From: a virus | Direction: 5' to 3' (one strand) | DNA: 64,000 nucleotides | IMG/VR virus record: IMGVR_UViG_3300050821_001373 | Location: 1 to 64,000 of that record | Shown here: positions 5,644 to 59,588 of the stretch, piece after piece | Numbering within the stretch: the first letter of the stretch is position 1 | How the letters are laid out: each line of letters starts with the position of its first letter | The notes under the pieces: model-generated | What the model was told of the DNA's origin: nothing | Database searches by the model: none | What the model saw: the letters and a program-made list of their open reading frames with translations, nothing else | Made by a program: the position numbers and the translations under genes

Positions 5644-8508
5644 TTAGCATAACGTAGTACAAACGATGCCAAAGTTTGAGTTCTGGACTACGCCGGGACC
5701 AGCAGGGGTAGTCCCGCCCGGGATAGTCGTTCCGCTGGTTAGAAGTCTTGCCCCACCAGTGGGCGTAGATGCCGCCGGTGTGTTTATTGGAGCCCCGGTA
5801 TAAGACGCATTAGTGAGAATGTATCCACCATTCCTGATCGCGTAGGCCACGCCAAGTGTGACATTAGCCGAAAATGCAATGTTACCTGATATCTGGATCC
5901 CGTTGCACATCGAACTGCAGAAGAGGATGGTTTGTGCAGTCATTGCAGCACCTGTGCCCACCACCAAAGTGGTCAGCCCAAACGTAGCTCTTCCGTTCGC
6001 ATCTGCAAAGAACAAGCAGTCGTTATTACCCTGCGGGTTCCACTGAGCAGACCCGAAGAAGTCATAGATAACGACTTGGTGTCCGTAGAATTGACAAGTG
6101 GCGGCCGTATTTGCGCTGTTGCACGCTAGCACTGGAGCGAAACCAAGATTCCAGTTGTGAATGACGATGCTACCATCACCGGCGTTCCAGCACGTTCCTG
6201 CGTTGGACCAAGTGATGGACCCGCGGTAATTGACCGTCAGGTAACATCCGACGCTGGATCCAGTTTGAGCTATGGACTCAGAGATCGTATTTGTGCCGCC
6301 AGCATAAATCCCAATCGCGCAAGCATTGTAGCCACCGCCATCCCACTGGGTGCCAATCAGATTAACCGCCGTCTGGACGTTCTTCAGACAGTCTGCCGCA
6401 GCACTGCCGAAGCCTCCGTTGCTATCACTTCCATCCTGCCGAACGCAAAGCTCGGGAGAGTTTCCCCTGCCTGGAATGAGCCAACGGATCTGATCGCTGA
6501 GCTGCCAGACGTTGTTCTGCGAATAAACACTGCGGCTCGCGCCCGGCCACATGTAAATCTCAGGAGCGATCTGCCAGTCAGTGAACGTTCCAGACCCTCC
6601 AACCGTGTCAACAGTCAGGGTAAACGTCGTGCCCGAATAGGTCGCAAGACCTGCCATCCAATTCGCAGTGTTGGCGAGCGAATAGACCCGATAGCGCTGG
6701 GCGGTGTCGATCGTCAGGCCGGCTGCCGTGGTGAACGCCTTCGAGCCCGTACCTATCGTAAAGCTGGTGGTGCTGGACGCGAACTGAGGCAAGAGCATTT
6801 TGGTCTTGCCGAGATCATCGTTCTTCACCCGGAAAGCGCAGCCGGACGTATAGCCAGACGGTGCGTTGAACGTAACAGCGTAAAAGGCCGCCCCGCTTAG
6901 AGCCAATGTCTGCTGGCAATCAGATGAGGTGCTCGTATAGGCAGCAGTCTTGGCGAGACGTGCGTTAGTCAGGACGCCAGCCACCGCCGCAACCGTACAT
7001 GTTCCGCTGCTGGAGATGTTGCAGGTGCCGGAGGTGGTGATACCAGAGCCGGGCGAAATGGTGACATTGGTCACTGACCCGGCAGAGTTCCAAGCCGGCG
7101 TAGATGCGCCCATGGTCAGCACTTGGCCGTTGGTGCCCGCCGCCAGTGCCTGCCAGCCCGTGCCGCCGGCCGCGCGGTACAGGATCGAGCCCGTGCCGGA
7201 GCCAATCACGTCAAGAACCGAACTCGGAGTGTTCGCGCTCGGTGCCGCAGAGCCGCCGGAGACGTTCGCGAGCACATTGCCGGTAGCGATCGATGCGAGG
7301 CTGACCGTTCCTGTCGTGGTGATCGGGCCGCCAGTCAGGCCAGCGCCGGTCGCGACGTTGGTCACGGTACCGGTACCGGCAACCGTAACCCATGACGGGT
7401 TCGCCGCCGCGCCGTTGGTCTGCAGCACCTGCCCAGACGTGCCGGGAGTGAGCGGGACCCAGGTCGAGGCATTGCGGTAGAGAATGCTGCCCTGCGTCGT
7501 CCCGAGCATATCGAAGACATTGGACGCGGACAACGCGGACGGAATTGCTGTGCCGCCGGAGTTATTGCCCAGCACCGAGTTATTGGAGATTGAGGGCAAT
7601 TGCGCCAGCATGACATTGCCGGCGATATCGGCGAATGTCGGCTGGCTTGCGGTGAACGCGCCAGCGGTAGAAAGCGAGCGCAACCATTGGCTTGCCGTGG
7701 CATTGATCGCGTTGACGCAGCCCAATGCAGCCAATTGGCTCGCCGGGCATTGCGTCGGAGCAATTGAGCCGCTAATGTCCGCAAATGACGGTTGCGACAA
7801 TTGGGGGATGCCGCTCGTGGAGATATTGCGGACCCAATTGCTCGCAACGGCGGTATTGGCCTGCACACCACCCAATGTCGAGGTTGATGGATTGGGAAGA
7901 TCAGCCCCCACCAGTGCCCGGAACGTCGGAGCCGACGCAGCGCCTGTGGTCGGTCCGGACCACAACGTGTTCGCGGCCTGCGTCGCCAGCGATCCGGTCA
8001 ATGTGCCGTTGGACGTAACCGGGCTTCCCGTCACGTTGAAGATGCCCGGCAGCGCGAGGCCGACCGAAGTCACCGTGCCAGTGCCGGACAGCGTCACCCA
8101 AGACAGGTGCCCTGATCCGTCCGTGGTCAGAACCTGGTTGTTCGCGCCGTTCGTTCCCGGAAGCTGGAACAGAACCGATCCGGCTGCTGATGGCACAGTG
8201 ATCGCCGCAGCGCCCGAGGTAGCGCCGTTCAGCGTGAGAGAGCCGCCCGTTCCGCCGTTGAGGCCCAGCGTCGGCGCCACGGTCGCCACCCAGCCCGAAA
8301 CGCCACGGTTGAGGATCGTGCCTTGACCCGAGCCGAACCCGCGATCAAGCAAAGTGGACTGCGAGTAGAACCCCGGCAATCCGGTCGTTGCCTGCCCGTT
8401 GCCGCACACGAACCCGGTCGTGGGCTGGCCCGAGCATCCGCTCTGCGCCTGCGCCGAGGACGCCGCCATGATCAGAGCAGCACCGAGCCAGAGAGCTTTC
8501 ATTTTCAT
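5644..8508 (-). CDS. Long tail-fibre-like protein with Sec signal peptide
   Basis: 954 residues. It begins MKMKALWLGAALIMAASS and an AQA cleavage site near residue 22, a textbook type I signal peptide. The next 450 residues are fibre-type repeats (GTGTVTSVGLALPG, LATQAANTLWSGPTTGAASAP, FRALVGADLP, repeated QVLTxGxxxPxW blocks). The last 300 are beta-helix-like and cysteine-rich. I count 20 cysteines after the predicted cleavage site, an even number, and the protein ends IVCTTLC. It sits in the tail operon between 8512-8970 and 5434-5631. A signal peptide is not expected for a tail fibre assembled in the cytoplasm. Confidence 0.75.
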   Translation of the reverse strand: MKMKALWLGAALIMAASSAQAQSGCSGQPTTGFVCGNGQATTGLPGFYSQSTLLDRGFGSGQGTILNRGVSGWVATVAPTLGLNGGTGGSLTLNGATSGAAAITVPSAAGSVLFQLPGTNGANNQVLTTDGSGHLSWVTLSGTGTVTSVGLALPGIFNVTGSPVTSNGTLTGSLATQAANTLWSGPTTGAASAPTFRALVGADLPNPSTSTLGGVQANTAVASNWVRNISTSGIPQLSQPSFADISGSIAPTQCPASQLAALGCVNAINATASQWLRSLSTAGAFTASQPTFADIAGNVMLAQLPSISNNSVLGNNSGGTAIPSALSASNVFDMLGTTQGSILYRNASTWVPLTPGTSGQVLQTNGAAANPSWVTVAGTGTVTNVATGAGLTGGPITTTGTVSLASIATGNVLANVSGGSAAPSANTPSSVLDVIGSGTGSILYRAAGGTGWQALAAGTNGQVLTMGASTPAWNSAGSVTNVTISPGSGITTSGTCNISSSGTCTVAAVAGVLTNARLAKTAAYTSTSSDCQQTLALSGAAFYAVTFNAPSGYTSGCAFRVKNDDLGKTKMLLPQFASSTTSFTIGTGSKAFTTAAGLTIDTAQRYRVYSLANTANWMAGLATYSGTTFTLTVDTVGGSGTFTDWQIAPEIYMWPGASRSVYSQNNVWQLSDQIRWLIPGRGNSPELCVRQDGSDSNGGFGSAAADCLKNVQTAVNLIGTQWDGGGYNACAIGIYAGGTNTISESIAQTGSSVGCYLTVNYRGSITWSNAGTCWNAGDGSIVIHNWNLGFAPVLACNSANTAATCQFYGHQVVIYDFFGSAQWNPQGNNDCLFFADANGRATFGLTTLVVGTGAAMTAQTILFCSSMCNGIQISGNIAFSANVTLGVAYAIRNGGYILTNASYTGAPINTPAASTPTGGARLLTSGTTIPGGTTPAGPGVVQNSNFGIVCTTLC

Positions 8509-8511
8509 TCG

Positions 8512-8970
8512 CTAACCCGCATCGCTGAGATAGAAGCCGCCACCCAGCGGGTACGGCGTGATCTGGACCCAAGCATAGTTCGTGGTGAGCACAAGCTGCG
8601 AGAGCCCGTCCACCAGTTCGCCACTCGTGAAGGTGATCGTGATGTTGTTCGTCCCGGCGTCGCCTTTGATGTCCTTGATCAGGATTGGCACGCCGCCGTA
8701 GCTAGATGCCAGATTCAACTTGATGCCGGTCGGGGCGCCGACGGCCTTGTTGACCAGCACCTTGCCGATTCCAGCGGGGACCAGATACGGCGAGCCAACC
8801 GTAGCGCCGGTCGTGATGATGACCGAGGCCCCTGTGCCGGCCGGGTTGATGAAGCTGGCGATCACGGACAGCGGCACCCGCTTGGTCGTGCCGCCCTGCA
8901 CAATGACGAACTCGTCATCACCGGTCAGGCCGAGCGCGAGAGGCAAGCTGCTGATCGGTATGTTACTCAT
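8512..8970 (-). CDS. Fibre-associated virion protein, unknown function
   Basis: 152 residues starting MSNIPISSLPLALGLTGDDEF. The sequence GDDEFVIVQGGTTKRVPLSVI is the short N-terminal module often seen at the start of phage fibre or spike proteins, followed by beta-rich sequence (NNITITFTSGELVDGLSQLVL). It has no signal peptide, unlike the fibre gene encoded three bases downstream, and could be its virion adaptor. Confidence 0.6.
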   Translation of the reverse strand: MSNIPISSLPLALGLTGDDEFVIVQGGTTKRVPLSVIASFINPAGTGASVIITTGATVGSPYLVPAGIGKVLVNKAVGAPTGIKLNLASSYGGVPILIKDIKGDAGTNNITITFTSGELVDGLSQLVLTTNYAWVQITPYPLGGGFYLSDAG

Positions 8971-16338: not shown

Positions 16339-16574
16339 TTCTTAGTCCTCCGACGATACCACGTCCGGCGCGACATGCCCTCTGCTTCCCATGGCCGCTG
16401 CCCGGTGATTTTGGGGCGACCACGCTTGATTGGATCTGACAGCCGAGACCGCTCCTCCTGGCCTAGCTCCGAGGAGCCGGCCTTGGAACTCTTGCCTTCG
16501 GTTTCTTTCGCTCGGGATTCGTTGCGGGCGATATTAGCCGCTTTCAATGCCCGTAACTGGTCAAGCTTGCTCAT
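16335..16574 (-). CDS. AT-hook plus WYRR-motif DNA-binding-like protein
   Basis: 79 residues from ATG 16572-16574: a helical charged N-terminus, an AT-hook-like KRGRPKI, and a C-terminal PWEAEGMSRRTWYRRR motif that looks like a short helix-turn-helix. The same motif ends the 50-residue protein at 25005-25157 and lies inside the helicase. The reading frame stays open upstream and encodes another GRP-type basic patch, so a longer product from a TTG start cannot be excluded. Confidence 0.6.
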   Translation of the reverse strand: MSKLDQLRALKAANIARNESRAKETEGKSSKAGSSELGQEERSRLSDPIKRGRPKITGQRPWEAEGMSRRTWYRRRTKK

Positions 16575-16590
16575 AGCAGGAACTCGGCCC

Positions 16591-16824
16591 TTAGGCCGAC
16601 CTCGCCGCTTCGAGGATAATTTCGTGATCAACCGTTGCGGCTTTCGCCTTGGCCCAGGCAGCAGATGCCCTGGCTTCGAGCCGACCGAGCAGTGCGTCAA
16701 AATCGTCACCGCGAGCAAAGCGGTCCATCATGCACGCAAGGTGCGCACGGTTACGCTGGAAATCTACTTTGCGAGCGGCGCGGAAGGCTTCGATGTAGAG
16801 GGCGACTTGCTGGGTGCGGGTCAT
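16591..16824 (-). CDS. Small helical protein after terminase
   Basis: 77 residues from ATG 16822-16824, chosen because GGAG lies 8 bases upstream. The protein is all helical: MTRTQQVALYIEAFRAARKV, then ACMMDRFARGDDFDALLGRL and an Ala-rich end. It follows the repeat-rich gap after TerL and is the first gene read after it. Confidence 0.6.
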   Translation of the reverse strand: MTRTQQVALYIEAFRAARKVDFQRNRAHLACMMDRFARGDDFDALLGRLEARASAAWAKAKAATVDHEIILEAARSA

Positions 16825-16854
16825 TTGCTTGCTCCGTTTTGCTGACACCATTAA

Positions 16855-16917
16855 TGGCACAACAAATCAGATGGCACAACAATTATTTTCTGTGCCAACG
16901 ATTTTATTTTTGTGCCA
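16855..16917. repeat. Four-copy TGGCACA repeat array between terL and the next gene
   Basis: TGGCACAACAA occurs at 16855-16865 and 16872-16882, and its inverted core TGTGCCA at 16891-16897 and 16911-16917, in AT-rich spacer. The CCATTAATGG palindrome at 16848-16857 abuts it. It fills the only sizeable gap in the packaging region (16825-16934) and could fold into two nested stems or bind a dimeric regulator. Confidence 0.75.
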
Positions 16918-16934
16918 CATGAAGGCAAGTCCCC

Positions 16935-18575
16935 TCACACATCATAAAGCGCCTTCTGCTGAGGCCGGTGCATCATCTGCTCCTTCAGCTCTGCCGCAAC
17001 CTCGAAGTCGTGCGAGATCAGGCCTTGCCGGCGCATCCAGGTTAGCGCCTGGGTCATGCTGTCGTGAATATCATCTCGCTTGCCCTTCGGGAACATTTCG
17101 CTCTGGCTGATCGCGTTCTCGGCCCAGATCGCATCAGGTGCGTAGACCATCCCGGCCGCGAACGTCGGTTCCACCGCGTGGGTGCGAGCAACCTTGTCTC
17201 CCACCGGGCTCACGAGCTCGACCAGCCAGCCATCCTCGCGATACAGTCGCTGCATTTCCTGCGATACCGTGATGCCAGAGGCCTTGTTCTCGATCAGCAG
17301 CCGGTCAACGCGGAACCGTCGGCACGAATATGCTATCCACTCGACCACGCCCCACGCATCCATCCTCATGCAGCGCAGATCGTAGTCCTTCTTGGACTCG
17401 CCGGAGTTGCGCGGCGGCAATTTCCCGTGCAATTCCTTGTGCTTGGCCCATGCCCACATCATCATGACGCGAGGCTTGCCGTCCGCGTCCCGGAACAGGC
17501 CCCAGACCGAGAACCCGGTTGGATCGTTCTCATCCTTCTCGGTGTAGGCCGTATCAGCCGAGGCAACCACGAAGTCGAAATCTGGGTATTTCTCCTCCTC
17601 CCAGAGCTGCCAGTATTCCCGCTTGATGATCGAGCCGCCGCGGGGAACCGGGCTCTGCTGGTATTGCCCGGACCACAGCGTCGGAACCCGCTTGAACGTC
17701 TGCAGCTCCTTCGCCGCGAACCGGCCTTCCCACGCCAGTTCACCGTCTTGGCCTCGGGGATCCGACCAGCCTATGCTCGTCTCACAGTGCCGGCCCTCCT
17801 CGTATTCCATCGGGATGCACAGATGCTCGTACTCCGGCATCCCATCGAGAATGGCACCGCTCACGTCAGCTTCATGCACCCTTTGCATGATGACAACGAT
17901 CGCATCTCGCCTTAAGTCATTGAGGCGGCTCTGGATTGACTCGGTGAACCACCTCACCGTGCCCTCTCGGATAGTCTCCGATTCCGCCTCTTTCACGTTG
18001 TGCGGATCGTCCACCAGCACCCGGTTTCCACGCTCACCAGTACCGACGCCGCCGACCGAGGTCGCCAGCTTCCAGCCCGTTTTGTCGTTTGAAACAAGCT
18101 CCTCGCCGACCTTGACCAGCTCGAACCGATCGCCGTACAGGTCCTGATATCTCCCGCTTTGCAGCAAAGCCAAGAACCGACGATTGTCCCTCATCGTCAG
18201 GGATGAAGCATAGCTGAACGCGACGTAACGCAGATGCGGGCGATTGATCGGCCCCCACTCCCAAGCAGGCCAAAATACATTTGTTAACAACGACTTCATG
18301 AAACCAGGCGGCACATTTTCGAGCAGCCGCGGCGGGTCAAGTTCCCCAAACGTGATCGCCTCAAGGTGCAGGCAAATCGCCTCCAGAGCCCAGCCGTCCA
18401 CAAACGGCGTCTGCGGCTCCAGAATGTCCCAGAAATACCGGACGAACTTAATGAGGCCGCCGCGGCGTCCCTGCTCCTTCTTCGCCCTTCTTTTTGCGAC
18501 CTCGGACGCCAGGCGCCGCTCCAGCGTTGGTAAGAGCGAGGGATCGAACGGCAGCGAGGAGTTCAACAAGCTCAT
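16935..18575 (-). CDS. terL: Terminase large subunit
   Basis: 546 residues. ATPase half: a diverged Walker A, VPPGFMKSLLTN at residues 88-99, and Walker B VLVDD at 186-190. Nuclease half: first acidic residue D341 in ASADTAYTEKDENDPTG, then LLIENKASG near 430, then KRDDIHDSMTQAL near 515. It translocates DNA through the portal and cuts concatemers. It overlaps the small-subunit gene by 128 bases, so translation may really begin somewhat later; the family's conserved sequence starts around FVRYFWDILEPQTPFVDGW (44-62). Confidence 0.93.
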   Translation of the reverse strand: MSLLNSSLPFDPSLLPTLERRLASEVAKRRAKKEQGRRGGLIKFVRYFWDILEPQTPFVDGWALEAICLHLEAITFGELDPPRLLENVPPGFMKSLLTNVFWPAWEWGPINRPHLRYVAFSYASSLTMRDNRRFLALLQSGRYQDLYGDRFELVKVGEELVSNDKTGWKLATSVGGVGTGERGNRVLVDDPHNVKEAESETIREGTVRWFTESIQSRLNDLRRDAIVVIMQRVHEADVSGAILDGMPEYEHLCIPMEYEEGRHCETSIGWSDPRGQDGELAWEGRFAAKELQTFKRVPTLWSGQYQQSPVPRGGSIIKREYWQLWEEEKYPDFDFVVASADTAYTEKDENDPTGFSVWGLFRDADGKPRVMMMWAWAKHKELHGKLPPRNSGESKKDYDLRCMRMDAWGVVEWIAYSCRRFRVDRLLIENKASGITVSQEMQRLYREDGWLVELVSPVGDKVARTHAVEPTFAAGMVYAPDAIWAENAISQSEMFPKGKRDDIHDSMTQALTWMRRQGLISHDFEVAAELKEQMMHRPQQKALYDV

Positions 18576-18834
18576 TGTCGCTCATGTCGTCCAGTGTGGC
18601 ATCTTTGACATGCAGTTCCTTCGGGATGATCGCCGCGATCACCTTCAGATATTGGTCCGGCTTCTCGGTTCGAACAGTCTCAATAACCCCTTTCCCGTGC
18701 GTCGCAAAATCGTCCGACATCGCCGCGATGAAGTCCTCGGACAGCTTGTTCCGTGAGCCCTTGGGCCGTCCGAGCGGGTTTCCGGACTGTCCGGGCTTGA
18801 ATCCTGGGTTACTTGGTCCTGATTTGAAGGTCAT
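18448..18834 (-). CDS. Terminase small subunit-like protein
   Basis: 128 residues from ATG 18832-18834 with AAGGG upstream. The N-terminus, GFKPGQSGNPLGRPKGSRNK, is the hallmark of a family found directly upstream of phage large terminases, followed by a helical segment. It would recognise the packaging site and recruit TerL. The frame is open further upstream: ATG 18868-18870, or a GTG coupled to the stop of the 58-residue gene at 19053. These would add an unusual cysteine- and Trp-containing leader, so I prefer the family-like start. Confidence 0.8.
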   Translation of the reverse strand: MTFKSGPSNPGFKPGQSGNPLGRPKGSRNKLSEDFIAAMSDDFATHGKGVIETVRTEKPDQYLKVIAAIIPKELHVKDATLDDMSDNELVELLAAVRSLALTNAGAAPGVRGRKKKGEEGAGTPRRPH

Positions 18835-19052
18835 CGGCCCTTGAATACCTGTTGTATTTTCAACACACATTCTAATTATCGGAACACCAGAAAATGCCGG
18901 ATATACCGATGTCGAGAGGAGGCAGCGCACCCACCAACAGATATGGGTCTTGCGCCGCATTGTACCACGGCTGGCGCTTGGGAGGAGCTGCAGCTCGGAT
19001 GTTAGCAGTGCGTCAAACTTGCCGGCGGCCTCTGCCATTACTTGGTCAATGC

Positions 19053-19229
19053 TCACAGCACACTCCAAAGGATCAAGGCGACGATCCCAGCCCAGGCAAG
19101 ATAGCTGCACACGTTAATCGTGCTGTAAATCGATTCAACCCACCAATTTCGGCGAGCCAAGTAGGCCCGGTTATCCGCTTGGGTTCGCCAAGTTCCGTCA
19201 TCGCATTCCACCAAGTCCTCGATGCTCAT
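19053..19229 (-). CDS. Small membrane protein
   Basis: 58 residues, ATG 19227-19229 overlapping the previous stop (ATGA). A polar, Trp-rich first half is followed by one transmembrane segment (SYLAWAGIVALILWSVL). Its stop overlaps a GTG that opens the terminase-small-subunit frame. The gap 18835-19052 holds only that open leader and an imperfect inverted repeat (18841-18863). Confidence 0.6.
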   Translation of the reverse strand: MSIEDLVECDDGTWRTQADNRAYLARRNWWVESIYSTINVCSYLAWAGIVALILWSVL

Positions 19230-19534
19230 GACGTGGTTCCTTCCTTGATCTCGCGCTTGATGTCCGCCAGCTCCTTGCCCACCGCAACACAGCCGGCGAT
19301 GCGGGTGAGGTCGGCAACTTGGGCGCGGAGGCGATCGATTTCGGCAGTCAGCCGCTTTTCCATGCCAAGTTTGGCTGAAAGATGATCGCGGTCGGCCTCC
19401 TTCAGTTCGTCGTTTTCGGCGCGCAGCAGCTCGATCTCGGCAATCGCCAGCCGCAGATCCTCCTTGAGCATGTCCTGCGCGCTATCCTCGTAGACGCGGA
19501 GGCAGGTGTTCAGCCTGTCAATGATGTCGGTCAT
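19226..19534 (-). CDS. Coiled-coil protein
   Basis: 102 residues with heptad-like Leu/Glu/Arg spacing over about 25-85 (DLRLAIAEIELLRAENDELK, MEKRLTAEIDRLRAQVADLT). It has a good ribosome site (AGAGGAG). The function is unknown; many rhizobial-type phages carry such short coiled-coil genes in this interval. Confidence 0.65.
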   Translation of the reverse strand: MTDIIDRLNTCLRVYEDSAQDMLKEDLRLAIAEIELLRAENDELKEADRDHLSAKLGMEKRLTAEIDRLRAQVADLTRIAGCVAVGKELADIKREIKEGTTS

Positions 19535-19680
19535 TCCGGTTGCTCCTCTTTCACTTGGTCTGGGTCTCGTATCAGTGCCCGGTCGGCTGCCGCTCGTTCC
19601 CGTCGTCTTGCTCGGTAGGCCCGGCGCTGGGCTGTGATCTTGTTCTTGCGTCGCTTGCTGGCTGGCTTGTGGCGGCTCAC
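19531..19680 (-). CDS. Very basic small protein
   Basis: 49 residues from GTG 19678-19680, which overlaps the previous stop (GTGA); its own stop overlaps the next ATG (ATGA). The first 32 residues are Arg/Lys/Ala-rich (SRHKPASKRRKNKITAQRRA), probably nucleic-acid binding. The double coupling is the main evidence for translation. Confidence 0.55.
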   Translation of the reverse strand: MSRHKPASKRRKNKITAQRRAYRARRRERAAADRALIRDPDQVKEEQPE

Positions 19681-19937
19681 CGTCCTGCCCTATGTGCCCG
19701 GAAAAGTGATCTTACGCAGCATTTAGCCAAGTTCCAACGGAGGTCGTCGGGCAGATACGAAAACCTCACCATGTCATTTATCAGAGCATGGCGGAGTTTC
19801 TGCAATACCTTGGCTTCCCTCATCTCTTCCTCCGTGGGTATCAGCAGCGGCGATCCTGGCACCTGTGGGAAGGCTCGGGGGACGCCGAACCAGAATGCCG
19901 CTGCTGAACTGGTTAGAGCTTCCCTACTTTGCCTCAT
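19677..19937 (-). CDS. Small hypothetical protein
   Basis: 86 residues from ATG 19935-19937 (MRQSREALTSSAAAFWFGVP). An in-frame TTG at 19953-19955 has a better-spaced GGAAAG and may be the real start. A helical segment (EEEMREAKVLQKLRHALIND) is visible but no family. Confidence 0.5.
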   Translation of the reverse strand: MRQSREALTSSAAAFWFGVPRAFPQVPGSPLLIPTEEEMREAKVLQKLRHALINDMVRFSYLPDDLRWNLAKCCVRSLFRAHRAGR

Positions 19938-20073
19938 CCTCGATCGCTGAGGCAATCAGCGTCTTTCCAAGCTCTGCAAGATATGCCGCCCTCCGGGATC
20001 GCCTAGCCTCACGCTCCTCGCGCTCTCGCTTGATGTCGGCCGCGGCTGATTTCATATCGACAACTTCGCCCAT
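19924..20073 (-). CDS. Small charged helical protein
   Basis: 49 residues, MGEVVDMKSAAADIKREREE followed by more Arg/Glu helix and ASAIEDEAK. It overlaps the start of the next gene by 14 bases. No family recognised. Confidence 0.5.
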   Translation of the reverse strand: MGEVVDMKSAAADIKREREEREARRSRRAAYLAELGKTLIASAIEDEAK

Positions 20074-20080
20074 GGTTGCG

Positions 20081-20377
20081 TCAATCCTTCGCACGAAAAT
20101 AGGTTATAAACCCCCGCCATAGAGCGCGATCACCGTATGTCTTTGTGTCGCCAACTGGCGTTGCCATCGTGCTCCAGAACCCGAACGGGGAGGTCACATC
20201 CATCTCGGCTGGGAAACGGCCAGCACTGACCCAACGCGTTTGGAATGAACCATCCTCCATCGTCCCACTGTAACCGGGGAAATCACACCGCTCCATGAAC
20301 TCAGCCCGCATGATACCAAACCACCACGGTACGATGCGACAGTCTCCGGTGCGCACCCACTTCGCTTCCCTGCTCAT
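20081..20377 (-). CDS. Protein coupled to the glycosyltransferase, unknown function
   Basis: 98 residues, Trp/Phe/Arg-rich: WVRTGDCRIVPWWFGIMRAE, then MERCDFPGYSG and FGFWSTMATPVGDTKTYGDR. It has a strong ribosome site (GGAGGGGAA-ATG) and a 4-base ATGA overlap with the glycosyltransferase stop, suggesting a shared job. Its pattern resembles the C-terminal part of some glycosyltransferases. Confidence 0.6.
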   Translation of the reverse strand: MSREAKWVRTGDCRIVPWWFGIMRAEFMERCDFPGYSGTMEDGSFQTRWVSAGRFPAEMDVTSPFGFWSTMATPVGDTKTYGDRALWRGFITYFRAKD

Positions 20378-46428: not shown

Positions 46429-46478
46429 GCGCTACCATGCCGCTTAAGGATGCGTCGGCTCCGCCGGTTGCGTCGTGA
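46425..46478 (+). CDS. 17-codon ORF at the convergent junction
   Basis: ATG with GGAGG 3 bases upstream encodes MSATMPLKDASAPPVAS, and its end overlaps the 3' end of the minus-strand adhesin gene by 35 bases. Probably the remnant start of a gene cut by the junction. Confidence 0.35.
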   Translation: MSATMPLKDASAPPVAS

Positions 46479-48504
46479 TGTAGGCCGAGAATGCATTCTG
46501 CGTCGTCGAGATCTGCATGTTGGTCTGACGCAGTATGGTGGTGCCGGGATTGGACCACGGGAAACCCTGATATAGCCCCGCCTTCAGATAGGCCCCGGTG
46601 TCGTTGTCCCAGAGAGCAGAGGGGCCTTTCGAGCAGATCAACGGCAGCGTCGAGCCGCGTGGCCCTGCGTTGATGGTGATCGTGTCGGTGGTGTGGTTCG
46701 TCGACCAGAACCCCTCGATTTCCACCGCATAGGTCGTGCCGACCGTCAGGGTAAACGGAGAGCCGCAATTGGTCGTGACCGGATTGCCCCCGCTCTCGCA
46801 ACATTGCGTCTGGAACTGAATCTGCCCATTCAGGCACGAGAACGTGACAAGGTCGGGCGTGCCCGGACTGCCGGCGCCGTCGTTGTAGTGGACCTGGCCG
46901 CCGTAGCACCAGTCTCCGTTATGTGTCTGATATTGCTCGAAATTGAACGTGTAATAGATCGAAAAATGCTGGCCGGGCGTAAACACCAGAGCATTATCGA
47001 TCTCGGACCGCTCCTGGATCGTGATATTTGCGTCGCTGTCGCCGGGCTGGACGATGAATCGCCACATCGTGGCGGTGTTATTGATGTTGGTCGCGCGCGC
47101 TATCGAGGGCCAGACATAGCCGCCTGATTGCGGGTGCCACGACTGCCCGAGCACGTCCGGGCCATAAGTGTTCTGGCCATAGGCATTGTTCGGCCCAGTG
47201 TAGGCATTCGGCACGTAGCTGCCAGCCATCGTGAAGCCGTCCGACGTGTTCGGTGCGAACGGGAACGTGTTGCCACCCTGACCCTGCAGGAAGGTCGCCA
47301 TCGCCACGCGGCTGGCCTGCGTCGACGGATAGAGCACCATCGTCTCAAAGCACGAATTGCTGGCGCTCTCCGAGCCCGAGGCGTTCGCGAACAGCGTCAT
47401 GCCCACGTTGGTCGAATAGGTGATGTTGCCACCGGTCGCGATGGTACCCAGGCTCACCGCGTCATAGTTCAACTGGGTGGTCGAGGTGTCGTAATCCCAG
47501 ACAGCCATCTGGCTGCGCATGCCGTTGTCAATCCGGAACTGTCCGAAGACCGGGGACCCGTTGCGCGCCGCGTTGAAATCGCTGGCCTGGTTCGAGCTCG
47601 CCGATGCCGCGCCGACGCCCCAATAGGCCACGCTGTCGAACTGCGCGCCGGCCGGGCCGTTCATGATCCAGACGCCGCCGCCGACCGAATTGGTGATGGT
47701 TAGGGTGTCGCCGGTCTGCGTGCCGGTCGGCCCGATATTGCCGGGCGCGAACGCCATCGTGCCCGTGGTGCCGGTCGGCAGCGTGTTCAGGTAGGACTGA
47801 CCGGTGCCCGAGGTGGCCGAGGCGTGCGGGATGAAACCAGCACTGTCATAGATGCCGGGGCTGGTGCCGAGTTGCGTCTGGTTGTTCGCCGTCGAGAGAC
47901 CGACCTGCGAGGCCATGGAGGCGATATTGGCCGAACCGTTCGTGATGTTGCCGGTCGTGACCCATGTCGGCAGGTTCGCCTGGCTCCATTTATAATCCAG
48001 CGTGTGCAGGTTCGCGACCATGAACAGGTGCTGCTGCGCGGTGTTGACGGTCGAGCTAAACGTCGTCGTCATCTTCGAACCCGGCTGCGGACAAACCGCG
48101 AGCAGGGAGTTCTCGTCGACAATCACCCGCGCCTTATGCCCAGCCGTAGAGGCATCCGATGCGTTGATGCCGTTGACCTGATCGACCCAGGTGTTCAGGT
48201 AGCAATAGGTGCTGGCACAGAACGTGTTGAAGCTGGCGACGTCGACCTTGCCGTTCGAGAGGAAGCCGATCGCCTGCGTCGCGCTGTCGCTCTGCCGCTG
48301 GACCGTCCCCCAACTGCCGGCATAACTGGAATTGAGCTTGTAGGCCGAAACGCCCCACGTCGCCCCGGTGTAGGTGTTGAGCAGCCCGGAGAATGACCCA
48401 CCACCCCCGCCTCCGCCGTTTACCGCAGCCTGAAAGAACGCGGCATTGACCGGCAAAGCAGCGATGATCGCTGTCAGGAGGCCGGCGAAAAGGATACGCT
48501 TCAT
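46444..48504 (-). CDS. Exported glycan-binding-like protein (arabinofuranosidase B-like)
   Basis: 686 residues. Signal peptide: MKRILFAGLLTAIIAALPVN, AxA-like site near 22. Then a Gly run (NGGGGGGGSFSG) and a domain with the AbfB catalytic-domain pattern (AYKLNSSYAGSWGTVQRQSD, AIGFLSNGKVDVASFNTFCA, CYLNTWVDQVNGINASDAS), then a lectin-like beta domain near 470-680 (FSIYYTFNFEQYQTHNGDW). I count 10 cysteines after the predicted cleavage site. Likely a surface or exported glycan-active protein; whether it is on the virion is unclear. Confidence 0.7.
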   Translation of the reverse strand: MKRILFAGLLTAIIAALPVNAAFFQAAVNGGGGGGGSFSGLLNTYTGATWGVSAYKLNSSYAGSWGTVQRQSDSATQAIGFLSNGKVDVASFNTFCASTYCYLNTWVDQVNGINASDASTAGHKARVIVDENSLLAVCPQPGSKMTTTFSSTVNTAQQHLFMVANLHTLDYKWSQANLPTWVTTGNITNGSANIASMASQVGLSTANNQTQLGTSPGIYDSAGFIPHASATSGTGQSYLNTLPTGTTGTMAFAPGNIGPTGTQTGDTLTITNSVGGGVWIMNGPAGAQFDSVAYWGVGAASASSNQASDFNAARNGSPVFGQFRIDNGMRSQMAVWDYDTSTTQLNYDAVSLGTIATGGNITYSTNVGMTLFANASGSESASNSCFETMVLYPSTQASRVAMATFLQGQGGNTFPFAPNTSDGFTMAGSYVPNAYTGPNNAYGQNTYGPDVLGQSWHPQSGGYVWPSIARATNINNTATMWRFIVQPGDSDANITIQERSEIDNALVFTPGQHFSIYYTFNFEQYQTHNGDWCYGGQVHYNDGAGSPGTPDLVTFSCLNGQIQFQTQCCESGGNPVTTNCGSPFTLTVGTTYAVEIEGFWSTNHTTDTITINAGPRGSTLPLICSKGPSALWDNDTGAYLKAGLYQGFPWSNPGTTILRQTNMQISTTQNAFSAYITTQPAEPTHP

Positions 48505-49616
48505 GGGAACACCGTCGGATTTACCGTATGAACGAATGCGTAGATTCGGTTGAACACGCGAAGCTGGCCAGCAGAGCCCAACGAACCGCCGACAGCCACG
48601 GCGAACACCGGTTCAAGGTATGTCGATCCGGAGCCAGCGCACTGCCAGCCTTGAGCCGTGGTGTTGTTCGGCGCTGAGGGAGTTCCGGTGGCCGAGCCAT
48701 TGGTTGCACCGTTATAATAATTGGTAAGGGTGGTGCCACTGAGATCACCCGCAAATAGGCCGGAAGCCGTGCCGGCGGTGCCGGTAGCGAAGCCAACGCC
48801 GTTAATCGCACCGCCCATGCCGCCGCCGAACGAAAACACCTGCATGTTGATATCAAACGAAGGCGCCGCCTCGCCGATCGGGCAGTTGTTATCGGCCGTT
48901 GCACCACCCAGCGTGCCGGCCATCAGCATGGCGCTCGACGTCTTGTAATTGGTCGCCGTCGAGTAATTCAGGCCGGTGTTGAGCGTGGCGTTACCGGTGG
49001 GGGTATAGCTCGTGTTGGTCGTGAACGTCGCGGTGCCGGTGATCGTGGCGCTGGTGGCCGTGATGATGTCCTTGAGCGCCGCGGCCGTGCTGTCGGTGGC
49101 GTGGATATACAGCCGGTCCAGCTTGGCGAAGTCGCCATCAGTGACCATACCGCAGATCATCGTCTGATAGGCAGTGGTGTAGGCCGTGGTAATACCAGAC
49201 AGGAACGCGGCAGACTCCGTACAACCGCTGCCACTCGCCGCGATCGTCAGCGTGAACGCCGATCCGCAGTTAGCCACTGTGGTTGTACTGTCAGTGACCT
49301 TGACTTGAATGCTGGGGAACGTTCCGGAGACGGATGGGGTGCCTGAAATGATGCCGGTCGAGGAGCTGATTGAAAGCCCGGTCGGTAGCGACCCGGTCTC
49401 CGAGAACGTGTAAGCTGGCGTTCCGCCCGAGGCGCTGGGCGTCGCGCCGGTGTAGAGAGTGCCCTGCGTTCCCGAGGTGACTGGCGTATAGGAACAGGAC
49501 AGCGCTCCGCTTGAGATCTTGGTCGGGTTGCTCCAGCCATCAAGAGAGCCGTTCCAGCCAGCGTGCGCACCGATGCAGGTGAACGATAGCAGGCCAGCGA
49601 TTAGCAGTTTTTTCAT
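48501..49616 (-). CDS. Exported Ig-like-domain protein
   Basis: 371 residues. MKKLLIAGLLSFTCIGAHAG is a signal peptide with an AHA site. Residues about 45-130 carry a putative-Ig pattern (GSLPTGLSISSSTGIISGTP then FPSIQVKVTDS). The rest is beta-rich and Gly/Ala/Thr-rich. Six cysteines in the mature part. Overlaps the next gene's start by 4 bases. Confidence 0.65.
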   Translation of the reverse strand: MKKLLIAGLLSFTCIGAHAGWNGSLDGWSNPTKISSGALSCSYTPVTSGTQGTLYTGATPSASGGTPAYTFSETGSLPTGLSISSSTGIISGTPSVSGTFPSIQVKVTDSTTTVANCGSAFTLTIAASGSGCTESAAFLSGITTAYTTAYQTMICGMVTDGDFAKLDRLYIHATDSTAAALKDIITATSATITGTATFTTNTSYTPTGNATLNTGLNYSTATNYKTSSAMLMAGTLGGATADNNCPIGEAAPSFDINMQVFSFGGGMGGAINGVGFATGTAGTASGLFAGDLSGTTLTNYYNGATNGSATGTPSAPNNTTAQGWQCAGSGSTYLEPVFAVAVGGSLGSAGQLRVFNRIYAFVHTVNPTVFP

Positions 49617-50200
49617 TGAGTCTGTACCAGCGCGGTCCCGTTCCAGAAATATTCGCTCTTTGCACCTGACAGAATAGGCAAGTTGATGCCTGTTCCAGTG
49701 ACAGTGAGTAGGATAGTGCCAAGAAGCGACGGCGGCCCGATAACCTTGAGTTGATATCCGGGGTAGAGATTCGTTGTAGACACCGACATCGTCAACGTGT
49801 TCCCGATGAGGACAGTGCCGGTTAGTTGCCAGATCGGCGCACTCACCAGCGGTGTCACGTTGATAGTGCCGGACGTGGCCGAGCTAGTGGTAGGGACACC
49901 CAACGAGAAGTGCTGCCAAGCGTTGGCGATGCACTTGGCATTATTGGCCCCGCCGCCCAGGTCGGTGACATAGGCTACCGAGCCGTAGGGAGTGGTAGTA
50001 CCGTTGCATGTCGGAAGGGTGGCAACGGTGAATGAACCGACGAAATTTCCTGGAGTAACGCTGCATGTGGTCGTGCAGCCGTTGACCGAGCTAACACCAC
50101 CCCCGCCTCCACCCCAATCGGCCTTGGCTACAATGAAGGGAGTACCAAAAACAGCGCCAGATAGAACTGCTATCAGCGGCCAGTTGTGCGGCTTTACCAC
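49613..50200 (-). CDS. Small exported protein with Gly run
   Basis: 195 residues from GTG (GGGGG upstream). Hydrophobic WPLIAVLSGAVFGTPFIVAK then ADWGGGGGGVSS: a signal peptide with likely AKA cleavage, a short Gly run, then beta-rich sequence (LTMSVSTTNLYPGYQLKVIG). Four cysteines in the mature part. Could be an adapter for the larger exported proteins. Confidence 0.6.
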   Translation of the reverse strand: MVKPHNWPLIAVLSGAVFGTPFIVAKADWGGGGGGVSSVNGCTTTCSVTPGNFVGSFTVATLPTCNGTTTPYGSVAYVTDLGGGANNAKCIANAWQHFSLGVPTTSSATSGTINVTPLVSAPIWQLTGTVLIGNTLTMSVSTTNLYPGYQLKVIGPPSLLGTILLTVTGTGINLPILSGAKSEYFWNGTALVQTQ

Positions 50201-50226
50201 GATAACCCCCGTTGTTCAGGGTGCTA

Positions 50227-52167
50227 CTAAAACCAGGTACATGACCACTTATGTCCAGTTGTAGCAGCAACCACAGATAGTGCCGTGTTCATACCAAATC
50301 CTTGAGGAGTGGTAAAGGAACCCGGTGAAGCAAAGGTTGTGGCAGTCGCAGCTTGCAGGGGATACGATGCCGCAGTGTTGGCGGCAGCGGTGGTGGTGAA
50401 CGAAATCCACAGCGGCTCCGTCGTATCAATGTTGACGATTGTAAAGCCGTGCAGCGTGGTCTGGGCGGTAAAGGCGTTCTGCGCCGTGCCGCCCGTGGTG
50501 ATCGTACCGGAGCAGTTGGTCGGGGTGACGTTGGATGGGCCCGCCTGCTGCACAACAATCTGACGTCCGGACGTGTCCGTCGAGATCGAGCGCGCGTTGG
50601 TACCATCCGAGCCGGCTGTCAGGACGGGATTCCCCGATACCGCCGAGCCGGATGCAGCGTTGCCCTTGACGGCAACAGCAGCCTGATCCGATGCGATCAC
50701 CACCGGGGATGAGTTGGCTGAGGTCGCCGAACCGTTCGCATTGGTGTTCTTGACGTTGACGAACAGAGAACCGGTGTTGTCGCACTGCAAGACGCCGGCC
50801 TTGCCAGTGGTCAGCACCGCATAGCTGCTGATGAACAGACAGCCGGTCGGCGTGATGCTGGTGGTGCCCTGGGTGAACGCGGCTTGGTCGGCAAGCGCCG
50901 TACCGCCCGATCCAGCGCCAGCTTTGATGTTCACCAACAGGTTGCCGTTGGCGTCCATCTGGAGCGGCGAGACGTTGCCCGAGGTGATCGTTGTCGGGGT
51001 CGTGTTGAATTGACCCAACGACAATTGGCCGTTGGTCGGGGTAGCGCCATTCTGGGTCGATGCGACAAGGCCCCATGCCGCAAGCGCAGACGGGACCACG
51101 GTTGCGTTGAGATTCGCCGCAGTGGCCTGTGCAGCCGTAACCGTTCCGGACACCGGCTGTGTCACGGCAGACCCGTCAGTACGGAGTGCACCGGCCGTGG
51201 TCAGGCTGAGCGAGTTGGTCTGCGCCGTGGTATAGGTCGGGGCCGCGGTCGTGACGGCACCGAGCGCGAGATTTCCGGTTTGCCCGGACGTGGTCGAGCC
51301 CAATGCCGCATTGGTTGGCTGGTTCGCCGAGGTCGCTGCGCCGGTCGGGAGCGGGAGGGCCGCAGCGGAAATCGGGAAGGTCTGGCTGGTGCCGGGGCCG
51401 ACAAACAGCGGGCTCGCCGCAGAGCCGATTTCCGTCCCGGCATTGTTGCGCAAATTGACGTGGCCTCCTCGCGCGCTCGTCATGCGCTGCATGGCCTGCG
51501 TGCCCGAGGTCAGCGTGGTAAGGCCGTCGTTGAACACACCGCCATAGGGTGCGAATACCGAGGCGCCCGCAGTGAATGCAGCCTGGTCCGTGCCGCTGGC
51601 GCCAGATCCACTGCAATTGGCGCAGTTGATGTATGCGAGGCCTCCCAAGACCTTCAGCATCGAGATCGTGCCGGCCGCCGTTCCGTCTACGGTGCCACCC
51701 ACCAGAACAGGCGGGTTTGCCGCGGCGCTTCCGACCGCAGTCGGCCCGAATACTGCACCGCCGCCACCGCCACCGCCTCCGCCACTTCCGGACCATGCAA
51801 CCGGGCCATGACCCGATGCAAACGTGATACGGAGCGTCGTGGTGCCAGTCGCAGTAATCGCAGCGAGGTAGTTGCCGGGATTGAGCTGCAACGTGGTGCA
51901 GAACCCGCCGGAGAACGACATGCCATTGGTCGTTGCCGTCACAGTTGACGGGCCGATCGCAACGAAGGCTTCCACCGTGCCGATGTTGCAAACCAGAGCC
52001 TGAAGCGCGTTGTTCGCGTTCGTCGGGGCCGAGCTCGATGACGTCGCGCTGATCGTCGCCGTAGACGTCGCGGTGATCGGTCGGAAGCCGCCCGGGGTAT
52101 CGGCATAGCTCGATACCGGGAAGAGGATGGAGATCGCCAGGGCGAGCGCGATACGGTGCTTGAGCAT
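50227..52167 (-). CDS. Large exported fibre-like protein
   Basis: 646 residues. Signal peptide MLKHRIALALAISILFPVSS with a YADT site. Residues about 25-115 form a beta domain (ALQALVCNIGTVEAFVAIGP). A Gly run (SGSGGGGGGGGGAV) near 135 precedes Ala/Thr/Gly-rich repeats typical of phage fibres (LPLPTGAATSANQPTNAALG, repeated GNLLVNIK and SLFVNVK blocks). Eight cysteines in the mature part. It follows the capsid genes, so it could be a decoration or receptor-binding component. Confidence 0.7.
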   Translation of the reverse strand: MLKHRIALALAISILFPVSSYADTPGGFRPITATSTATISATSSSSAPTNANNALQALVCNIGTVEAFVAIGPSTVTATTNGMSFSGGFCTTLQLNPGNYLAAITATGTTTLRITFASGHGPVAWSGSGGGGGGGGGAVFGPTAVGSAAANPPVLVGGTVDGTAAGTISMLKVLGGLAYINCANCSGSGASGTDQAAFTAGASVFAPYGGVFNDGLTTLTSGTQAMQRMTSARGGHVNLRNNAGTEIGSAASPLFVGPGTSQTFPISAAALPLPTGAATSANQPTNAALGSTTSGQTGNLALGAVTTAAPTYTTAQTNSLSLTTAGALRTDGSAVTQPVSGTVTAAQATAANLNATVVPSALAAWGLVASTQNGATPTNGQLSLGQFNTTPTTITSGNVSPLQMDANGNLLVNIKAGAGSGGTALADQAAFTQGTTSITPTGCLFISSYAVLTTGKAGVLQCDNTGSLFVNVKNTNANGSATSANSSPVVIASDQAAVAVKGNAASGSAVSGNPVLTAGSDGTNARSISTDTSGRQIVVQQAGPSNVTPTNCSGTITTGGTAQNAFTAQTTLHGFTIVNIDTTEPLWISFTTTAAANTAASYPLQAATATTFASPGSFTTPQGFGMNTALSVVAATTGHKWSCTWF

Positions 52168-53427: not shown

Positions 53428-54342
53428 TTACGAGGTCGGGTTGGAGCCGTACAGCGCGCGGGGCTCATTATACGAGTAGCTATTACGCTCGTAGCCCTTG
53501 ACGAGAAGGTTGTCGGTCGAGAACTCGACCGAGAGGTCCGACTCATACGGTACGCGGTTCATATAGACCAGACCGTCCTGATTGGTCTGGAGGAACCACG
53601 AGAACTGCGACGTGAGATAGTTCCAGACGAGATAGCCGTCCGGGACGCCGCCCTGAGTGGACAGGATCGCGTTGACATCGTTGTTGCCGGTGCCGGGCCG
53701 CAGCTCGGTCTTGAGCAGGCGGATGGCAGTGGGCTCGAGTTGCGGCGGAATGATGAGCCGGCGCGGCTTGGCGTTCATGCGCTGGTTGGCGTTGTCGCGG
53801 AAGTTCGCGTTGATCGCCACCTGGGCATTGAGCAGCGAGGTCTCGTTCAGGGACGCCGCAGGAGATGCGAGGTTCGAGAACGTGCCGCTGTCCACCGGAT
53901 GTGCCGTGGAAAGGAGTGCCTGACCGTCGCCGCCGATCGCGTTGTTGTAGACCGTGGCGCTGTTGAACACGTCGGCCGCAAACGCCTCATTGGTACGATA
54001 GAAGGCCTCGTTGAGGCCCATCACGGCCGGGCCAAACTCGGTCTTGTAGAGGTTGTCGTCGATGGCCTTCCGTGTAATCGCGAACAGGACAGCCAGCTCG
54101 TTGTGAGTCTGGTTGTACGTGTAGCGCTGACCGGAGGCGTTGTCCGCCTGGGTAGGCGCGCCTTCCTGCTTCACATAGGCCTGCGCCAGGTAGCGCATGC
54201 TGGTCGACTGTTCGAGCGCCATGTTCGACTTGCGCTCTTTGAAGATCTGCTTGCGGACGGCCGGGAGCTGATCGTACTTTCCCGTAACGGACCAGAGGCC
54301 GGGGAGAAGCAGATTGCGGATTGAACTGAGAGCAATAGGCAT
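53428..54342 (-). CDS. Major capsid protein (HK97-like, gpT-type)
   Basis: 304 residues. The N-arm-like start (MPIALSSIRNLLLPGLWSVT) is followed by an E-loop/spine region (RYTYNQTHNELAVLFAITRK, AIDDNLYKTEFGPAVMGLNE, AFYRTNEAFAADVFNSATVY) and a P-domain end (RRLIIPPQLEPTAIRLLKTE). The pattern is closest to the Mu gpT-like major head proteins. No cysteine is present, unlike the exported neighbours. It is about 39 kb from the portal gene on this map. Confidence 0.75.
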   Translation of the reverse strand: MPIALSSIRNLLLPGLWSVTGKYDQLPAVRKQIFKERKSNMALEQSTSMRYLAQAYVKQEGAPTQADNASGQRYTYNQTHNELAVLFAITRKAIDDNLYKTEFGPAVMGLNEAFYRTNEAFAADVFNSATVYNNAIGGDGQALLSTAHPVDSGTFSNLASPAASLNETSLLNAQVAINANFRDNANQRMNAKPRRLIIPPQLEPTAIRLLKTELRPGTGNNDVNAILSTQGGVPDGYLVWNYLTSQFSWFLQTNQDGLVYMNRVPYESDLSVEFSTDNLLVKGYERNSYSYNEPRALYGSNPTS

Positions 54343-55094: not shown

Positions 55095-55271
55095 ATGACG
55101 AAACAACCGAAATCTGCACCGAAGCCACCCGCTGGCTGGGGCGCTGCTGCGTGCTGCCCGATGGTGGATCACAGCGGCCGCGTCACGAACGTCGAGAAGC
55201 GCCGCTATCGGATCGTCTATCAGCGGCGCATCACGCTCGACGAGGCCATTGAGCAGGGGTTGTTCCCATGA
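55095..55271 (+). CDS. Small basic protein, plus-strand cassette
   Basis: 58 residues from ATG 55095-55097 (GAGGAGG upstream). KQPKSAPKPPAGWGAAACCP then VEKRRYRIVYQRRITLDEAI. Function unknown; first of three overlapping plus-strand genes. Confidence 0.6.
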   Translation: MTKQPKSAPKPPAGWGAAACCPMVDHSGRVTNVEKRRYRIVYQRRITLDEAIEQGLFP

Positions 55272-55546
55272 CGACGCGCCGTGGCTTCATCACCGGCCTG
55301 ATCTCGTTCGTGGCCGCGCCGGCCATCGTGCGCGCGGAAAGCTTGATGAAGCTTCCACGTCCCCGCGTCGAACTGCTGGAGCCCTATGGCCGCAGTCCAG
55401 TGCTGGCCGCCTTGCAGAACTTGAGGGACGCGGAGGAAGCCCTGTACATCAGCACCGCGATCCCGATGGCGGAATGGCGGTTGATGAACCAGGCACGCCC
55501 AGAGTTTGACGGTTTCATTGATATACCATTCAGGACCATCTCATGA
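55268..55546 (+). CDS. Tat-signal-bearing small protein
   Basis: 92 residues. MTTRRGFITGLISFVAAPAI then VRAES is a twin-arginine signal (TRRGFI) with an ARA-like site near 23. The mature part has a helical and a beta segment (RVELLEPYGRSPVLAALQNL). This family recurs in rhizobial-type phages; its folded export via Tat suggests a cofactor or a folded periplasmic protein. Confidence 0.7.
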   Translation: MTTRRGFITGLISFVAAPAIVRAESLMKLPRPRVELLEPYGRSPVLAALQNLRDAEEALYISTAIPMAEWRLMNQARPEFDGFIDIPFRTIS

Positions 55547-58001: not shown

Positions 58002-58409
58002 TTACTTGCTCCCGATTCCATAGATGTTCATGATGTTCTGCAGCGATTCCGTTGCGGCGACGAGGGTGTTGTAGAGCCCGGCATCGGCGAGCGTGCCCGG
58101 ATTCGCCTTCATGAAGCCTCGGAGATCGTTACGAGCCTTGATGCCGGCATTGAACGGTGCATCCAGAGCCTCGGCTGCGCCCTTGACGCGGCAGAGATTG
58201 CCGACTCCAGTGCACATCGGCAGCTTGAGATAGTTCGTTGCAGACCGCTCCGCGGCATTGAACACGTTGATGGCGATATAGGCCGTCTTGCTCTTGACCT
58301 TGACGTCGCCAGCGACCTCGATCGCCTGACCGATTTTCTGGAAGGTGGTGCACGCTGGCAGCGAGGCAAGACTGGCCGCGAGCGCGATAGAAAGGATGAT
58401 TTTCCGCAC
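58002..58409 (-). CDS. Putative lipoprotein (o-spanin-like candidate)
   Basis: 135 residues from GTG. MRKIILSIALAASLASLPAC is a lipoprotein signal with lipobox LPAC; Cys20 would be lipidated. The mature 115 residues are helical with two further cysteines (CTGVGNLC). Position after endolysin and holin candidates suits an outer-membrane spanin partner. Confidence 0.65.
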   Translation of the reverse strand: MRKIILSIALAASLASLPACTTFQKIGQAIEVAGDVKVKSKTAYIAINVFNAAERSATNYLKLPMCTGVGNLCRVKGAAEALDAPFNAGIKARNDLRGFMKANPGTLADAGLYNTLVAATESLQNIMNIYGIGSK

Positions 58410-58791: not shown

Positions 58792-58953
58792 CTATCGGTG
58801 AGCTTTGGATACCCGGATTATAGTCGATTTGATCATACCGGCGACGATGAGCACACACGCAACAGCAAGAGCCAACACCGACGTCCAGAACATGCAGATG
58901 AGAAGGGCCATGCAGGCTAGACAGGCGCCTGCCGCTATGCCGACGCCGATCAT
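58792..58953 (-). CDS. Second holin-like membrane protein
   Basis: 53 residues from ATG 58951-58953: MIGVGIAAGACLACMALLIC, MFWTSVLALAVACVLIVAGM, then a basic tail. Two membrane helices; the start overlaps the endolysin stop (ATGA). Either of the two genes could be the pore former. Confidence 0.6.
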   Translation of the reverse strand: MIGVGIAAGACLACMALLICMFWTSVLALAVACVLIVAGMIKSTIIRVSKAHR

Positions 58954-59588
58954 GACGCCACCGGTACGGCCACATTAGCCGCCTTCCAGCGCTTGAGCCA
59001 TTCCTTGCGCTCGGGCAAACCGGTCAATCCACCATTGAGGGCCCTCGTAACCCCGCTGATGTCATCCTTCCTCGCATAAGGTAGACACCCACAGTTGACG
59101 AAATCGGACACTGCGCAGAGCAGGAAGGTTTCGGGGCGAATCAGGATGTCTGGATCCTTGATGACGTCGAGGCCGGTCTGTTTGGCAACGCGCTCATACC
59201 CCTCCCTGCCCGTCGTCTGCGAGCCGCCGCGGCCCCGGAAATTCCATCCGTCGTCCGAGCCCGTCTTGTTACCCATGCGGCCGTTGTAGACCTTGTTCGC
59301 CAGCGCCTTGGGATTGTTGACGAAAGGCTGTGCACTGGCGACCGTCGGGAAGCGGCTCGGCCATACTGCGCGCAATCTTGCGTTCGAGTAATTCAAGTTC
59401 TCAATCATGTCATGGCCGGCTCCGCATTCGTGGCTGATCTGCGCCATGACGTGCGCGAGCACTAGCGGGCTGTCGATACCGTATTTTGCGAACACCGACG
59501 GCGCGCTGGCGGCGATACCGTCGCGGAGCCCCGGAACGCGTTCATCGCCGTTCGGCCAGAGATTATAAAGCGTGTTGATGAATGCCAT
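58950..59588 (-). CDS. Endolysin, GH19 chitinase/lysozyme-like
   Basis: 212 residues, no signal peptide. VMAQISHECGAGHDMIENLN contains the catalytic glutamate (HE, residue 54) of the GH19 lysozyme-type fold, followed by LANKVYNGRMGNKTGSDDGW and NFRGRGGSQTTGREGYERVA. It would cut peptidoglycan after holin release. The GH19 assignment fits the whole length. The upstream gap 59589-59728 contains no convincing gene. Confidence 0.85.
   Translation of the reverse strand: MAFINTLYNLWPNGDERVPGLRDGIAASAPSVFAKYGIDSPLVLAHVMAQISHECGAGHDMIENLNYSNARLRAVWPSRFPTVASAQPFVNNPKALANKVYNGRMGNKTGSDDGWNFRGRGGSQTTGREGYERVAKQTGLDVIKDPDILIRPETFLLCAVSDFVNCGCLPYARKDDISGVTRALNGGLTGLPERKEWLKRWKAANVAVPVAS

Follow-up and report, generated by a model that had tools for sequence, protein, structure and literature searches.

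Many tailed phages of soil bacteria appear to route tail-fibre and adhesin proteins through the host secretion channel

Many tailed phages of soil bacteria appear to route tail-fibre or adhesin proteins through the secretion channel of their host, among them the phage studied here, from which we analysed a stretch of 64,000 nucleotides (the window) that makes up most of the 65,471-base IMG/VR virus record IMGVR_UViG_3300050821_001373. Five window proteins carry this trait: a 954-amino-acid (aa) fibre in the tail module, W954 (5644..8508, minus strand), and the products p1 to p4 of four genes beside the capsid gene (46444-52167). Each has an N-terminus of the AxA type with n-, h- and c-regions, marginally so in p3, and each has an even number of cysteines in its mature part (5/5). 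Comparison across related phages brought out predicted signal peptides, a rule of even cysteine numbers, a fibre that is split or fused at one and the same locus, and fibres with a conserved N-half and a divergent C-half. The best reading of these observations, which we consider moderately probable, is that the distal fibres leave the cytoplasm by export, acquire their disulfides in the periplasm and attach to virions at lysis.

Results and Discussion

Signal peptides

The initial annotation had assigned Sec signal peptides to p1-p4, and the four open reading frames (ORFs) are present where it had placed them: p1 (46444..48504, 686 aa), p2 (48501..49616, 371 aa), p3 (49613..50200, 195 aa, GTG start) and p4 (50227..52167, 646 aa). 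All four lie on the minus strand; overlaps of 4 bp occur at 50200/49616/48504. Our rule-based scorer of n-, h- and c-regions, calibrated on seven exported Escherichia coli proteins with scores of 5.6-9.6, likewise recovers a Sec-type signal peptide on all four: MKRILFAGLLTAIIAALPVNA followed by AFF in p1 (score 8.0), MKKLLIAGLLSFTCIGAHA followed by GWN in p2 (8.7), MVKPHNWPLIAVLSGAVFGTPFIVAKA followed by DWG in p3 (6.6, the weakest and marginal) and MLKHRIALALAISILFPVSSYA followed by DTP in p4 (7.6). W954 scores 8.2. When residues 2-40 were shuffled 2000 times, the observed score was reached by 20, 0, 21 and 10 shuffles for p1, p2, p3 and p4, respectively. Of the 62 window genes that encode 120 aa or more, p1, p2, p4 and W954 are called at a threshold of 6.5; the call includes a penalty of 0.5 on non-ATG starts, through which p3 drops out.

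The GTG start and low score of p3 could raise the suspicion of a gene-calling artefact or of hydrophobic N-termini arisen by chance. However, a score of at least 7 is reached by 0 of 130 genes from five related phage records in which the trait is absent (L028, L030-L033), and the trait recurs in the same place at many loci. For the set as a whole, an artefact is hardly credible and is refuted; p3 alone is uncertain.

Cysteine parity

Cysteine counts of 10, 6, 4 and 8 behind the signal peptides of p1-p4, and of zero in the capsid protein, had also been reported, and a recount returned the same figures; a seventh cysteine of p2 is located within its signal peptide. W954, which has 20 mature cysteines, was missing from that first set, and the rule of even numbers reaches far beyond the window. 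The window and related phage loci yielded 112 signal-bearing proteins with a length of 200 aa or more; 109 of them contain cysteine, and the mature number is even in 106 of these 109, versus 244 of 538 signal-less proteins (Fisher p=5e-28). After clustering, with one protein kept per cluster, the figures are 43 of 45 versus 154 of 326. Within one cluster the counts range from 2 to 20, all of them even; the number therefore changes while the parity holds.

A profile of tail-fibre shaft repeats, chosen blind to signal peptides, led to 80 loci with 38 distinct signal-bearing fibres and 33 complete signal-less ones. Cysteine numbers are even in 37 of the 38 signal-bearing fibres, the odd one being cut at its 3' end, and in all of the complete ones (35/35); signal-bearing fibres are also richer in cysteine than signal-less ones (p=7e-6). 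The annotated tail fibres of Rhizobium phage Paso, RHph_TM3_3_3 and Achromobacter phage Motura were rejected as further cases, being repeat matches only, with no signal peptide.

An even cysteine number is accepted as a sign that an exported protein is oxidised (PMC7678975), and by this standard the signal-bearing proteins are of the kind expected of disulfide (Dsb) substrates. Judged by sequence, export and disulfide pairing of the signal-bearing fibres are well supported; the disulfides themselves are predicted, and export is not a prediction artefact. One might still take the N-terminal hydrophobic stretch, a signal peptide by prediction only, for an uncleaved segment that binds the membrane or attaches to the virion in proteins that remain cytoplasmic. 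AxA sites, the twin-arginine variants found in some relatives and the rule of even numbers would all be unexpected in cytoplasmic proteins, and we regard this explanation as very unlikely.

A split fibre in the tail module

W954 lies inside the tail module and comprises a signal peptide, a Cys-loop N-domain (CSGQPTTGFVCGN), shaft repeats and a divergent C-terminal domain. Adjacent to it is W152 (8512..8970, minus strand), a fibre anchor protein of 152 aa (MSNIPIS...GGTTKR) with neither signal peptide nor cysteine, which matches our anchor hidden Markov model (HMM) with E 1.4e-18 and whose domain stands at the N-terminal end of the long fused fibres of relatives. In a Bradyrhizobium prophage with a 94% identical capsid protein, the same slot is occupied by a single ORF of 701 aa, anchor first and shaft behind, which has no signal peptide and no cysteine. 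This fused fibre shares 41% identity with W954 over 666 aa and its N-terminus matches W152; the window therefore carries the same fibre cut in two. By its homology to an anchored fibre and its place in the tail module W954 is a tail fibre, and W152 is a candidate dock for it. Searches of Pfam and the PDB with the W954 sequence returned nothing.

With the anchor HMM, a separate small anchor gene followed by a signal-bearing fibre was found in the window and in L114, L115, L117, L118, L119, L122, L123, L128 and L132, and fused signal-less fibres in L014, L019, L020, L080 and the Bradyrhizobium prophage. A shaft encoded separately behind the anchor bears a signal in 10 of 10 cases, as opposed to 0 of 4 where the shaft is fused to the anchor (L014/L121, L129/L080, L143 and the prophage). 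W954 shares its N-domain with eight phages. Nine signal-bearing fibres of the CSGQ..CGN type, one of them W954, are about 60% identical across the first 480 alignment columns and about 20% thereafter, a pattern typical of receptor-binding proteins, in which the dock is fixed and the tip varies. The conservation of the N-half suggests a fixed phage partner.

A possible pathway in two compartments

Assembly of tailed phages is, in the textbook view, cytoplasmic, with fibre attachment before lysis as its final step. According to the reading preferred here, fibre and adhesin proteins would be made late and exported unfolded by the host Sec system (Tat in a few relatives), would lose their signal peptide and would fold in the periplasm with all cysteines paired as disulfides. 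Virion assembly would meanwhile proceed in the cytoplasm and leave the particle with nothing but a short anchor protein, which in the tail slot is W152. Endolysin and spanins would then open the cell, so that virions and periplasmic fibres mix, and the conserved N-terminal domain of the fibre would dock on the anchor, so that the particle is finished outside the cytoplasm. Docking on the virion and its timing at lysis are what we infer: fibres exported rather than built inside the cell would join the particle only at cell burst. P22 tailspikes and T4 fibres can be added to particles in vitro, so late docking is chemically possible.

Several points weigh against this pathway. We know of no tailed phage that adds a Sec-exported fibre, and the signal peptides were scored with a home-made tool. 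In four relatives a short anchor stands without an adjoining signal-bearing gene. One related locus (L007) has a signal-bearing cassette together with a whole anchored fibre (L129, 814 aa, 2 cysteines), and the window itself retains a signal-less putative tail protein (3728-4717, phrog_8763); exported proteins therefore need not be the only receptor-binding proteins. AlphaFold models of the key proteins are poor, and that of the W954 C-terminus, modelled without relatives, is unusable (pLDDT 32.6).

The capsid-side cassette

The same export would apply to p1-p4. The initial annotation had left two options for them, an adhesin system at the surface or secreted, or else fibres that mature in the periplasm and join the particle at lysis or afterwards; the second fits W954 best, and the predicted features of p1-p4 are compatible with either, whether the proteins end on the virion or act free. 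Behind its signal peptide, p1 consists of a GH54/Con A-like N-half and an unassigned C-half. The N-half matches a member of an AbfB-like family (L058, E 9e-6), and the five best PDB fold matches of a weak AlphaFold model (pLDDT 47.6) are GH54 arabinofuranosidases; by sequence, p1 matched nothing in Pfam or the PDB, GH54 included, and as a query it found no relatives in viral contigs. p2 has a He_PIG immunoglobulin (Ig) domain (PF05345, 35.9 bits at a cut-off of 24). p3 has a Gly-rich linker and a small fibre-like domain, and p4 a Gly-rich linker, repeats and a C-terminal phage domain that matches phrog_22789, a PHROG of unknown function, with E 6e-5. Domain matches in the set that might bear on a tail-fibre role are confined to phrog_22789 on p4 and He_PIG on p2. 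No anchor gene or domain adjoining the cassette was found with the anchor HMM, and the DNA of the cassette matched no named phage.

Such domains bring up the main rival explanation: the exported proteins may not be virion parts at all, but free adhesins or polysaccharide-degrading enzymes that clear exopolysaccharide (EPS), block receptors on debris or exclude superinfecting phages. Capsid-side cassettes bear GH54-like, Ig, pectate-lyase-like, SGNH-like and lectin-like parts, the cassette of L007 stands beside an ordinary anchored fibre and hence is extra there, and in one relative a LamG/SGNH-like protein starts with a Tat signal. On the other hand, W954 in the tail slot replaces a fused virion fibre whose anchor is retained as the neighbouring gene, Collar, S74 and Phage_depo_C are tail domains, and the conserved N-half points to a fixed phage partner. 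Free secretion alone is, in our judgement, rather unlikely as an account of the whole set.

Occurrence in related phages

One to four consecutive signal-bearing genes stand 3' of the capsid gene in L005, L007, L012 and L022. An apparent signal peptide in L008 (12118-12777) was discarded as an artefact of an upstream start; the real start is MQPKYLTK, and the relatives in L005 and L022 have no signal. A profile of the GH54-like domain led to 27 loci, where signal peptides occur in 30 of 58 genes within two genes of the GH54-like one versus 19 of 152 elsewhere (p=1e-8). An AbfB-like profile found only three loci across the genus Bradyrhizobium, at which the two complete matched genes and the neighbour of the third, a fragment, are signal-bearing. 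Four relatives of p4 (L044, L004, L002 and L034) all have a signal peptide, and a profile of the p4 repeat led to only four loci, two previously met and two signal-less.

Tat-type signals take the place of Sec signals in L004 and L063, an argument that selection acts on export itself. In L063 a GH54-like homologue (7857-8828) bears a Tat signal and is free of cysteine in its mature part (one is gained with an upstream start), which fits cytoplasmic folding before Tat export; a second Tat-signal gene (8828-10069) follows directly.

The wider signal-bearing set includes proteins with Collar, Peptidase_S74, Phage_depo_C and pectate-lyase domains and matches to tail-fibre PHROGs. ppBdUSDA122-1 (OP596612), a temperate siphophage of Bradyrhizobium, has two consecutive signal-bearing proteins after a tail protein, one of 482 aa with 6 cysteines and an annotated tail fibre of 865 aa with 18 (WAX24263.1); electron microscopy has shown siphophages shed by its host, Bradyrhizobium diazoefficiens USDA 122 (PMC10127595). 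The proteins gp45 and gp46 of Pelagibacter phage HTVC023P are signal-bearing with 4 and 2 mature cysteines, and two Manatee Spring genomes hold further cases. A complete podovirus of a different lineage, MW202554.1 (L034), has four consecutive signal-bearing genes right after the portal gene (14767-20267), one annotated as a concanavalin A-like lectin and one as an endopolygalacturonase. Another record, IMGVR_UViG_3300001167_000001 (58225 bases; L042/L050), has the same signal-bearing cluster at both ends, probably a terminal duplication or an assembly overlap. Whether the two-compartment pathway operates in several unrelated lineages of podoviruses, siphoviruses and probably myoviruses and has been overlooked so far seems to us evenly balanced; it would have been overlooked because such genes are labelled either hypothetical protein or simply tail fibre.

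Known systems and implications

The fibres resemble the fibres and tailspikes of tailed phages (Collar, Peptidase_S74 and pectate-lyase spikes with anchored N-terminus and variable tip) in their shaft repeats and conserved N-half, and W954 does so also in its divergent tip, its position in the tail module and its homology to an anchored fibre. In contrast to the known fibres, which fold in the cytoplasm and have no signal peptides, those described here have a Sec signal, a separate anchor and even, high cysteine numbers. The pIII adhesin of inoviruses is likewise a phage adhesin exported by Sec with a signal peptide (PMC4823517), but inoviruses assemble at the membrane and are extruded, whereas the window phage is tailed with cytoplasmic capsid assembly. 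Signal-peptide endolysins such as Lys44 of fOg44 and SAR endolysins are tailed-phage proteins that use host Sec before lysis, but are lysis enzymes and not fibres (PMC6116005). Agrobacterium phage Milano, with a related alphaproteobacterial host, has disulfide-bonded tail parts; however, these are the sheath and baseplate, and the paper never mentions 'signal peptide', 'periplasm' or 'cytoplasm' (PMC10811340). The detachable tailspike TspA of RcGTA is also alphaproteobacterial, degrades EPS and leaves the particle, but it is delivered on the particle, and the paper mentions no signal peptide or disulfide (PMC13420450). Our search of the open-access literature (most subscription journals lay outside it) turned up no tailed phage described as exporting its tail fibres through Sec, and we rate the fibres as being of a known type with an undescribed route of maturation.

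If the proposed pathway is true, tailed-phage assembly is in part extracytoplasmic, the fitness of the phage would hinge on host DsbA, virions could share fibres with one another at lysis, and disulfides would make fibres stable to a degree beyond the reach of cytoplasmic folding. A signal peptide combined with an even number of mature cysteines is a simple and strong annotation rule for many phage genes now labelled hypothetical.

The window phage and neighbouring genes

The major capsid protein (53428..54342, minus strand; PF25209), our cysteine-free reference point, is of the Pam1/HTVC023P-like podovirus type: its relatives occur in podoviruses whose annotations name Pam1 adaptor proteins and in podoviruses of the HTVC023P group. 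The nearest isolate relatives are found in Bradyrhizobium, and a Bradyrhizobium chromosome holds a relative with a 94% identical capsid protein and the same gene order; the window phage group is therefore probably temperate. A near relative integrated in this way, together with the adhesin-like domains, would suit a conversion of the lysogen surface, in which a prophage displays adhesins on the living host cell. The genes, however, stand in a late structural operon with 4-bp overlaps, adjoining the capsid gene, and no outer-membrane anchor was seen in them; we consider surface conversion improbable.

Capsid gene and fibre cassette are distant from the tail-adaptor genes in the window, whereas capsid, cassette and adaptor are adjacent in L011, L020 and L021. 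A likely lipoprotein (MRKIILSIALAASLASLPAC; 58002-58409, minus strand) near the endolysin gene (58950-59588) is a possible outer-membrane spanin. A small protein encoded at 55268-55546 on the plus strand, opposite to the late genes, has a signal of the twin-arginine (Tat) type at its N-terminus (MTTRRGFITGLISFVAAPAIVRA).

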